Origin: Candidatus Thermoplasmatota archaeon
GTDB taxonomy: Archaea; Thermoplasmatota; SW-10-69-26; JACQPN01; JAJPHT01
Assembly (NCBI GenBank): GCA_035540375.1
Contig: DATLGO010000108.1
Span: 1 to 33,387, forward strand
DNA length: 33,387 bases
Direction: 5' to 3'
Shown: piece by piece, positions 7,696 through 31,853 of the stretch
How positions within the stretch are numbered: the stretch's first letter is position 1
Layout: the number at the start of each line of letters is the position of its first letter
Position numbers and translations under genes: made by a program
Notes under the pieces: generated by a model
Databases searched by the model: none
Seen by the model: only the letters and a program-made list of their open reading frames with translations
Told to the model about the DNA's origin: nothing

Positions 7696-7911
7696 ATGGC
7701 CTTGCCTCTGGACGTGCTCGAACGTTCCATGAACCGGAAGATGAGTCTCCAGCTCAAGGACGGTCGCGTCCTCGAAGGCAAGCTCGTGGGCTACGACCAG
7801 TACATGAACCTCGTCCTGGACGAGACCGAGGAGAAGCACGCGGAAACGACGCGCCGCCTCGGGACCGTCGTCCTCCGCGGCAACAACGTGGTCACCATCG
7901 CCCCCTCGTAG
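7696..7911 (+). CDS. Sm-like (Lsm) RNA-binding protein
   Basis: A 71-residue archaeal Sm protein, the normal single-domain length. The Sm1 motif is MSLQLKDGRVLEGKLVGYDQ followed by YMNLVLDE (Asp and Asn of the RNA-binding loop present); the Sm2 motif is LGTVVLRGNNVVTI. These proteins form heptameric rings that bind U-rich RNA and take part in RNA processing and small-RNA biology. The open frame extends to 7492, but ATG 7696 matches the family start and has a TATA box upstream. Ribosomal protein L37e often follows this gene in Euryarchaeota; here the expected L37e is absent and a structured non-coding gap follows instead. Confidence 0.95.
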   Translation: MALPLDVLERSMNRKMSLQLKDGRVLEGKLVGYDQYMNLVLDETEEKHAETTRRLGTVVLRGNNVVTIAPS

Positions 7912-7957
7912 GCCCGAGGGGGCGGAGGGGTCAAGGCGGGGCCGGCAGGCCCCCGCA

Positions 7958-7965
7958 TTTATAAG
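7958..7965 (+). promoter_or_regulatory. TATA-like box in the Lsm/metAP gap
   Basis: ATTTATAA followed by G, a strong archaeal box A, predicts transcription from about 7988. It is downstream of the Lsm gene and faces the 3' end of the methionine aminopeptidase gene, so it cannot serve either. Confidence 0.5.
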
Positions 7966-7988
7966 AGCGGCCGCGCTCGTTCTCGGAA

Positions 7989-7996
7989 CTTATATG
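7989..7996 (+). promoter_or_regulatory. Second TATA-like box in the Lsm/metAP gap
   Basis: CTTATATG predicts transcription from about 8017, immediately before the self-complementary segment 8021-8086. Confidence 0.5.
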
Positions 7997-8014
7997 TAGG
8001 CGCATAGGCCAATA

Positions 8015-8120
8015 CGCCTTGGAAGGGCCCGGCTGGTAGTTGTTAAGTGCATCCCATCCCCTCCTAGTGAGGCCAGCACCCCTTCCATTCTCATCCGTGT
8101 CGCGCCCGCGCGCGACACGG
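8015..8120 (+). ncRNA. Candidate structured small RNA
   Basis: This segment follows two TATA-like boxes and encodes no credible protein. It can fold into GGAAGGG (8021-8027) paired with CCCTTCC (8080-8086), GCTGG (8032-8036) with CCAGC (8073-8077), and an inner hairpin CCTC (8060-8063) with GAGG (8069-8072). A perfect 10-bp hairpin at 8095-8120 closes the unit. It is less G+C-rich than neighbouring coding sequence. I could not match it to tRNA, 5S rRNA, SRP RNA, or clear C/D or H/ACA boxes. Both ends are inferred from the TATA spacing and the hairpin. Existence of a transcript is inference. Confidence 0.4.
8095..8120 (+). terminator. Perfect 10-bp inverted repeat, possible 3' end signal
   Basis: CCGTGTCGCG (8095-8104) and CGCGACACGG (8111-8120) are exact reverse complements around the loop CCCGCG. 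It sits between the candidate RNA and the 3' end of the methionine aminopeptidase gene and could end transcripts from either side. No T-run follows, so the mechanism is open. Confidence 0.45.
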
Positions 8121-8135
8121 AATCCGCTGTCCGAG

Positions 8136-9044
8136 CTAAGGCTCCGCGCCGCGCGTCGTGACGACGACGCCGCTCTCCTCGACGAGCACGGTGTGCTCGA
8201 ACTGCGCCACCATGCCCTGGCCGGCTTCGCGCAGGACCGGATATTGCTTCACGGCGCCCGATCGCTCGAGAAGGCGCAGCGCGTAGGCGAGCTTCGCCTC
8301 GGGCACGGCCTTCGCGATCCATCGGCCTGCGAACGGCAGGTGGGGGTGGTGCTCCTCGATGTACGCGAGGGCCTTGCGCGCGAGCGGATCGCGCTGCGGG
8401 CGCGCCGCCAGGAAATGGTAGATGTTGCCGCCTTGCGCGTCCCGCACCTGGCCGGCGCCGTTCGTCGCGAAGGGCTCGATCGCGATCGCGATGCCCGCGG
8501 GCAGCGACCCGCGCCCGGACGGCACGCTCGGGATGCTGATGCCCGCGTGCTGATGATAATGGTCCACGCTGTGGCCCGTCAGGTTCGCGATCGGCCGGAA
8601 ACCGAGCGCATGCATCGTGGACTCGACCGTTTCGCCGATCTCGCGGATCGCGAGCCCGGGCTTCACCATCGGAACGACCTTCGCGAGGCTCGCGCGCGAG
8701 GCCTCGAGGAGCGTGTCCCACTTCCCGGTGCCGCCGACCTCGACGGTCGTCGCCGTGTCGCCGATGTAGCCGTCGACCTGGGCGCCCACATCGAGCTTGA
8801 CGACGTCGCCGCGCTTGAGGGTCGACGCGTCGCCGGGGGCCGCGGTGTAGTGGGCGGCGTCCTCGTTGAGCGACGTGCAGCAGGGAAACGCGGGAGACGC
8901 GCCCTCGCGGACGATGAAGGCCTCGACCTCGGTCGCGACGTCGACGAGCTTCGCGCCCTCCACGAGGAGCGTCGCGCCGTAGTCGCGCGCGCGCCCCGCG
9001 ACGCGGCCCGCCTTCAGGTATTTCTCGCGCACGGTCGCGTCCAT
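8136..9044 (-). CDS. map: Methionine aminopeptidase, type II
   Basis: A 302-residue archaeal type II methionine aminopeptidase that removes initiator Met from nascent proteins. The five metal ligands are visible at the spacing of characterised archaeal enzymes: D85 (KLDVGAQ) and D96 (YIGDTA), H158 (LTGHSVD), E190 (AIEPFAT) and E283 (QFEHTV). H65 in DAAHYT is the substrate-binding histidine. The region from about 195 to 265 is the type II-specific helical insert. It is the last gene of the aMBF1 - Sua5 - map operon; its ATG shares one base with the stop codon of sua5 (TGATG), implying coupled translation. Confidence 0.96.
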   Translation of the reverse strand: MDATVREKYLKAGRVAGRARDYGATLLVEGAKLVDVATEVEAFIVREGASPAFPCCTSLNEDAAHYTAAPGDASTLKRGDVVKLDVGAQVDGYIGDTATTVEVGGTGKWDTLLEASRASLAKVVPMVKPGLAIREIGETVESTMHALGFRPIANLTGHSVDHYHQHAGISIPSVPSGRGSLPAGIAIAIEPFATNGAGQVRDAQGGNIYHFLAARPQRDPLARKALAYIEEHHPHLPFAGRWIAKAVPEAKLAYALRLLERSGAVKQYPVLREAGQGMVAQFEHTVLVEESGVVVTTRGAEP

Positions 9045-31688: not shown

Positions 31689-31780
31689 GCGTCTCGAGGT
31701 CGCGAGAAAGCGCGGCGCCGTGCGCGCGCGGAAAGAGGGGAGACGTCGGGGGGCGGGCCCCCGGACGCGCTCCCGATGAG

Positions 31781-31853
31781 CGCCGCCTAACGGATTCGAA
31801 CCATTGACCTTCGGATTAACAGTCCGACGCTCTACCGGCTAAGCTAAGGCGGC
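31781..31853 (-). tRNA. tRNA-Asn (anticodon GTT)
   Basis: The minus strand folds into a full cloverleaf: acceptor GCCGCCT (31853-31847) with AGGCGGC (31788-31782), discriminator G at 31781, D-stem GCTT with GAGC, anticodon stem TCGGA with TCCGA around CTGTTAA (anticodon GTT), and T-arm AATGG-TTCGAAT-CCGTT. There is no intron and CCA is not encoded. Discriminator G is normal for tRNA-Asn. Confidence 0.97.

Follow-up and report, generated by a model that had tools for sequence, protein, structure and literature searches.

A small RNA gene lies between the convergent Lsm and methionine aminopeptidase genes of a Candidatus Thermoplasmatota archaeon, and the complement of its loop lies in the cdrS-ftsZ spacer and/or the Shine-Dalgarno and start region of the cdrS-linked ftsZ gene (FtsZ2 type). 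Judged from sequence comparison, this RNA is very probably a trans-acting antisense RNA that pairs with the cdrS-ftsZ2 mRNA and controls, most likely represses, the translation of FtsZ2. Archaeal trans-acting RNAs are usually poorly conserved and, to our knowledge, few of them have an identified target.

The RNA gene and its locus

The window, that is the whole stretch of 33,387 nucleotides analysed here, contains an Lsm/SmAP gene on the plus strand at 7696-7911 (Pfam LSM, 2e-23) and a methionine aminopeptidase-type M24 peptidase gene on the minus strand at 8136-9044 (Pfam Peptidase_M24, 9e-30). These coordinates confirm the 224-bp gap between convergent genes noted in the original prediction, with the Lsm stop ending at 7911 and the M24 stop beginning at 8136. 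Within the gap, the covariance model R2 matches positions 8020-8087 of the plus strand (G000:C108, 63.5 bits, E 3e-12). We infer that this segment is a stand-alone orphan RNA gene of about 68 nt, transcribed as drawn, the ends of the mature RNA being approximate. The RNA of the window genome (G000) reads 5′-GUGCAUCCCAUCCCCUCC-3′.

The fold of 8015-8125 has a free energy of -48.8 kcal/mol, whereas dinucleotide-shuffled sequences give -32.5 ± 3.4 kcal/mol (z = -4.8); none of 200 shuffles was as stable. All the nested stems of 7, 5 and 4 bp proposed earlier for 8021-8086 are present. In the outer stem, the 5′ arm GGAAGGG (8021-8027) pairs with the 3′ arm CCCTTCC (8080-8086), and double-sided changes were found across the family in 9/9 outer pairs. 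The inner stem GCTGG/CCAGC pairs 8032-8036 with 8073-8077 and the nested CCTC/GAGG hairpin pairs 8060-8063 with 8069-8072; this inner fold (8032-8077) is specific to part of the family. The plus strand also carries the second pairing block R1 (CCGGCTGGTAGTTGTT, 8029-8044), for which many relatives have a complementary segment in the cdrS-ftsZ spacer, and the ultraconserved loop block R2 (GTGCATCCCATCCCCTC, 8047-8063), which is antisense to the ftsZ leader or start codon and includes the 13-nt loop TGCATCCCATCCC at 8048-8060. The 10-bp GC-rich hairpin that had been described as well exists (8095-8120, pairing 8095-8104 with 8111-8120) but falls downstream of and outside the conserved RNA. It is not conserved beyond the closest relatives, and a hairpin at this position occurs only in G000 and G001, the two genomes of family f1, with differing sequences; its probable role is that of a local terminator separating the convergent genes.

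A BRE/TATA promoter element, CGGAAC-TTATATGT, is located on the plus strand at 7984-7997, and its TATA sequence TTATATG (7990-7996) stands about 27 nt before the stem. Among 111 orthologues, the distance from the stem to the nearest preceding TATA also peaks at 27 nt, the archaeal spacing for initiation at the base of the stem. Both TATA-like boxes of the original prediction are thus present and the second is positioned for the RNA as in its relatives, but the first (TTTATAAG, 7958-7965, plus strand) is too far upstream to be its promoter. A T-rich run lies no more than 20-25 nt from the stem in about half of the orthologues.

According to tblastn, the RNA gene is accompanied by the Lsm gene in loci of the Thermoplasmata side, by the methionine aminopeptidase (MetAP) gene in Poseidoniia and by both in the window group. 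This synteny supports the orthology of the RNA loci; by itself it does not show a functional link to Lsm. The Lsm connection raised by the original prediction holds as a neighbourhood in the window group and other Thermoplasmata-side loci, but not in Poseidoniia, and a link between Lsm and the small RNA is only suggested by this circumstantial evidence. An Lsm protein may assist the RNA.

Distribution, covariation and rejected identities

Using 7990-8135 as the blastn query, relatives were found in 61/97 genomes of the same phylum, among them a genome from another family of the same order in which 68 nt are 100% identical. The unit conserved in the relatives corresponds to 8020-8087. Of 390 Thermoplasmatota genomes, 274 contain the RNA according to the covariance model R2. 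For the exact 18-mer AGTGCATCCCATCCCCTC, the GTDB contigs gave at least 119 matching stretches, and the matches listed were all titled Thermoplasmatota, Poseidoniales or Euryarchaeota; the search outside Thermoplasmatota consisted of this one exact-motif scan. The loop UGCAUCCCAUCCC is invariant in nearly all relatives fetched, an invariance that is overstated because the homologues were gathered partly through the loop sequence. Several f16 genomes have 2-5 copies of the RNA, and in genomes of this family paralogous or partial copies were seen elsewhere (L276, L277, L278, L280, L281), some with a shortened C-run (GCATCCCATCCCTCCTAG).

The stem arms vary by lineage, with GGAAGG/CCTTCC, GAACAGGG/CCCTGTTC, GTACAGGG/CCCTGTAC, GGAAAGGG/CCCTTTC and other combinations, and the left and right arms of the same RNA pair better than in any of 1000 arm permutations. 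In a structural alignment of 44 sequences, 11 of 12 pairs change on both sides (0/500 shuffles) and the covariation score is 0.41 versus 0.13 in shuffles, a signal that collapses when the alignment is slid; the alignment was fitted to the structure and is biased toward it, whereas the arm-permutation test is free of that bias. The original prediction, a small RNA not yet described and driven by a promoter of its own, was to be judged by covariation in relatives and by an Rfam search. Phylum-wide conservation, the covarying stem, the positioned TATA and the gap's lack of a match in Rfam 15 together strongly support it. That the gap is instead a decayed gene or a chance structure without an RNA product is barely conceivable, since it is conserved throughout the phylum, covaries with compensatory changes and has a positioned promoter; no evidence in favour of decay was found.

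At gathering score, no Rfam 15 match was obtained in the window except one tRNA at about 31780-31853, and at relaxed thresholds neither the gap nor eleven related short loci gave a match of note. This tRNA-Asn (GTT), on the minus strand, is the sole Rfam/ARAGORN match in the window. DicF and other Rfam 15 families were rejected, as no match came near any gathering score. Box C/D and H/ACA guide RNAs were likewise rejected: inspection revealed no C/D boxes and no ANA box 3 nt after a stem with a guide pocket, and there was no Rfam match of the snoRNA type. A mimic of 5S rRNA does not fit because loop C of 5S rRNA varies (UCUCAUUCC, CCCAUUCC) and differs from the RNA loop, which does not vary. 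As to a guide or antisense RNA for rRNA, no strong conserved complement was found in 16S or 23S rRNA; the best contiguous runs comprise 7-11 bp including G-U pairs at non-conserved places, and the sole run at a conserved place is 9 nt in 23S rRNA with two G-U pairs. A short peptide gene (GTG CAT CCC ATC CCC TCC TAG) was dismissed, its stop codon not being conserved and its third positions being invariant. Several candidate hairpin RNAs with the same loop turned out to be the opposite strand of target sites in cdrS-ftsZ spacers, others to be paralogues or parts of coding sequences. Three IMG/VR matches to a 17-mer, considered as viral copies, are about what chance gives and have unrelated flanks. 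G007 contains a repeated element (L194, L195, L196, L410) with inverted TGCATCCCAT...ATGGGATGCA ends; these are probably the termini of a mobile element that has no connection with the RNA.

Complementarity to the cdrS-ftsZ leader

A search with the loop complement returned more matches than the reversed control pattern, an imperfect control that contains stop codons. Several of the matches lie in sense orientation in the interval from a cdrS-like ribbon-helix-helix gene to ftsZ, and among ftsZ leaders fetched generally the complement is present in most lineages. This complementarity, the main result, was not part of the original prediction. All or part of GGGGAUGGGAUGCAC is found in the cdrS-ftsZ spacer or where ftsZ begins, GGGGAUGGGAUGCAC itself occurring for example in G013, G018, G065 and G087. 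In many lineages, the second block (GGCUGGUAGUU) pairs beside the loop site, with up to 27 contiguous mRNA bases covered. Long two-block duplexes are found, for instance, in G007, G026, G034, G059 and G142: the G007 leader GGAGGGGAUGGG-UUGCAACCAGCCUAU matches the RNA of the same genome in two adjacent blocks, and the leaders of G059, G034 and G142 contain UAACAACUACCAGCCUAUC (19 nt), GGGAGGGGAUGGGAUGCC plus GCUACCAGCC, and GGGGAUGGGAUGCACUACCAGCCUAU, respectively.

The location of the site relative to ftsZ differs among lineages. The motif GAUGGGAUGCA overlaps the ftsZ start codon in the window genome (G000), G001 and G002; in the Poseidoniia family f17 the start codon lies inside GGGAUGGGA, and in f25 GGGAUGCAC(U) is found shortly upstream of the start. 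Elsewhere, the second block stops immediately ahead of the Shine-Dalgarno sequence. In part of the family, the loop site is 90-115 nt upstream of the ftsZ start, and in f16 it is within a hairpin loop 95-115 nt upstream. In the window genome, the predicted duplex with GGAG-U-GAUGGGAUGCA extends over the ftsZ Shine-Dalgarno sequence and AUG at -29.1 kcal/mol, with 2/1000 shuffled sites as good; the best of its single sites spans 11 nt, a length that by itself could arise by chance, and the cdrS-ftsZ spacer holds two more short complements. The ftsZ gene of this genome is on a different contig (G000:C61), and the RNA gene is unlinked to this putative target. A perfect conserved 12-nt target in every genome was rejected, as G045 has no perfect 12-nt complement apart from the RNA gene itself; it has a 10-nt match at ftsZ.

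For a leader test, the 17-nt loop was scored against leaders, a score of ≥24 counting as a strong complement, and leaders of the Lsm and MetAP genes served as controls. Because the genomes share ancestry, these tests are only partly independent and all of the following figures are inflated to some degree: such scores were reached by 26/36 cdrS-type ftsZ leaders versus 1/128 control leaders (p = 3e-18); the mean leader score was 26.7 versus 16.4 ± 1.0 for shuffled loops (0/400, and also 0/400 for Poseidoniia alone); cognate RNA-leader pairs beat swapped pairs (0/5000 permutations as good); and the second block upstream of the loop was independently complementary to the leader (0/300). The leaders of other FtsZ paralogues, an internal control, lack the motif.

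The RNA and a cdrS-type ftsZ tend to be missing together. Of 38 genomes without a model-detected RNA, 33 also lack a cdrS-type ftsZ (six of these, all f27, lack any FtsZ match); the other five keep the target motif, and the RNA may have been missed there. In one genome in which the model did not find the RNA (G036, 1,486,778 bp), there are two intergenic GCATCCCATCCC hairpin-like sites (L270, L269), one of them near an HSP20 gene. Conversely, no cdrS-type ftsZ was recognisable in the RNA-bearing genomes G014, G015, G028, G037, G061 and G093, and G012 and G079 have the RNA with only a weak site.

Proposed function and relation to known regulators

A stand-alone gene unlinked to its target, a putative promoter of its own and conserved complementarity to a leader are the sequence features of a trans-acting base-pairing sRNA, and this RNA has all of them. 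The RNA family, the stem covariation, the positioned promoter and the stronger leader complementarity of cognate over swapped pairs were each computed directly; an invariant loop complementary to the ftsZ start region makes the RNA probably a base-pairing regulator of cell division. We propose that it presents the single-stranded block GUGCAUCCCAUCCCCUC on a stem, and that this block would base-pair in trans with the mRNA of the cdrS-ftsZ2 operon. In the window genome and its closest relatives, pairing in the cell would mask the ftsZ Shine-Dalgarno sequence and start codon, while in many other lineages two adjacent blocks would cover the cdrS-ftsZ spacer, the second ending just before the Shine-Dalgarno sequence. 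Such pairing would probably lower FtsZ2 translation, and these positions make repression the most likely effect.

For sites 90-115 nt upstream of the ftsZ start, the effect could also be on stability, on cdrS, or an activation. Activation or stabilisation of the cdrS-ftsZ transcript by the RNA, for instance through an opened leader hairpin, would suit f16, where the site is in a hairpin loop 95-115 nt before the start; we consider it unlikely, since the start codon is covered by the pairing both in the window group and in the Poseidoniia family f17. A different role, in which an RNA-binding protein (perhaps Lsm/SmAP) recognises the invariant loop and its complement in the ftsZ leader would be a secondary or chance feature, would account for the extreme loop invariance, the Lsm gene adjoining the RNA in Thermoplasmata-side loci and the U-rich stretch that precedes the loop in some lineages. 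We regard it as quite improbable, for the leader holds the complement of the loop, not a copy, a second independent block is complementary as well, cognate pairs fit best, and the Poseidoniia neighbour is MetAP, not Lsm.

A broad regulon of the seed type, with ftsZ2 as one target among several, would be compatible with an FtsZ2-directed antisense RNA; we hold this idea tentatively and with some doubt. Extra sites exceed the chance expectation in several genomes, in some cases where orthologous genes have their start codons, and GGAUGGGAUGCA occurs at other gene starts, e.g. of a winged-helix regulator (G018, G087) and of smc (G146). Yet only cdrS-ftsZ recurs phylum-wide, the other sites being found in at most two of the genomes examined, and some extra matches are RNA copies or lie inside coding sequence. 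The orthologous winged-helix-type regulators, at about position 1501 of L407 (G018:C5) and L408 (G087:C37), start with GTGGATGGGATGCA, a near-complete loop complement, and are a possible second conserved target. The smc gene (Pfam SMC_N), with GGGGGGATGGGATGCAT in its start region (L318, G146:C1, about 1501, minus strand), is a possible chromosome-segregation target in this one Poseidoniia genome. In another Poseidoniia genome, the loop complement GAGTGGGGATGGGATGCACTC follows a ribbon-helix-helix gene that is not beside ftsZ (L273, G040:C36, about 1922, minus strand).

Among known RNAs, the antisense regulator of FtsZ2 proposed here most resembles those of bacterial division. DicF is a trans-acting sRNA of the E. 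coli Qin prophage, present in many but not all E. coli genomes, that pairs with the translation start region of ftsZ and blocks division (PMC5069750). Both are small trans-acting RNAs with pairing, here predicted, at the ftsZ start region; DicF is bacterial and prophage-borne, whereas the archaeal RNA belongs to the core genome, is phylum-wide, has an invariant loop and shares no sequence relation with DicF by Rfam. StfZ (PMC9628754), a Klebsiella sRNA regulator of cell division (PMC10907235) and Yfr28 (PMC7368042) are further antisense RNAs tied to ftsZ mRNA or cell division. All three are bacterial, and StfZ is cis-antisense and yfr28 lies opposite ftsQ/ftsZ, unlike the archaeal RNA gene, which is unlinked to ftsZ. 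The conserved archaeal division operon cdrS-ftsZ2 is controlled in haloarchaea by the ribbon-helix-helix proteins CdrS and CdrL (PMC7439475, PMC8406309). These act on the same operon as the predicted RNA target, but they are protein transcription factors, and no conserved trans-acting RNA has been reported for the operon. Tan1, also from Poseidoniia, is an abundant and unexplained ncRNA of marine group II/Thalassoarchaea (PMC5069720); it differs from our RNA in its length of 229 nt, its complex structure and its reported restriction to Thalassoarchaea, and the two may still be related. The open-licence literature yielded no paper with the sequence of the RNA and none demonstrating that an archaeal sRNA acts on ftsZ and, within the scope of this literature and Rfam 15, the small RNA has probably not been described before.

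We think it likely, from the sequences compared, that an ancient, phylum-wide trans-acting RNA controls FtsZ2 translation in Thermoplasmatota and that RNA and mRNA site have been coevolving since the origin of the phylum, which would make it the first conserved base-pairing division regulator known in Archaea. If true, an RNA with an almost frozen loop, found across most of the phylum including the abundant marine group II archaea, would be aimed at the central division protein. Post-transcriptional control of archaeal division, suggested for ftsZ2 by ribosome profiling (Ribo-seq) in Halobacterium (PMC8303175), would thereby become directly testable, and the gene can be searched for in genomes and transcriptomes of cultured Thermoplasmatota such as Methanomassiliicoccales.
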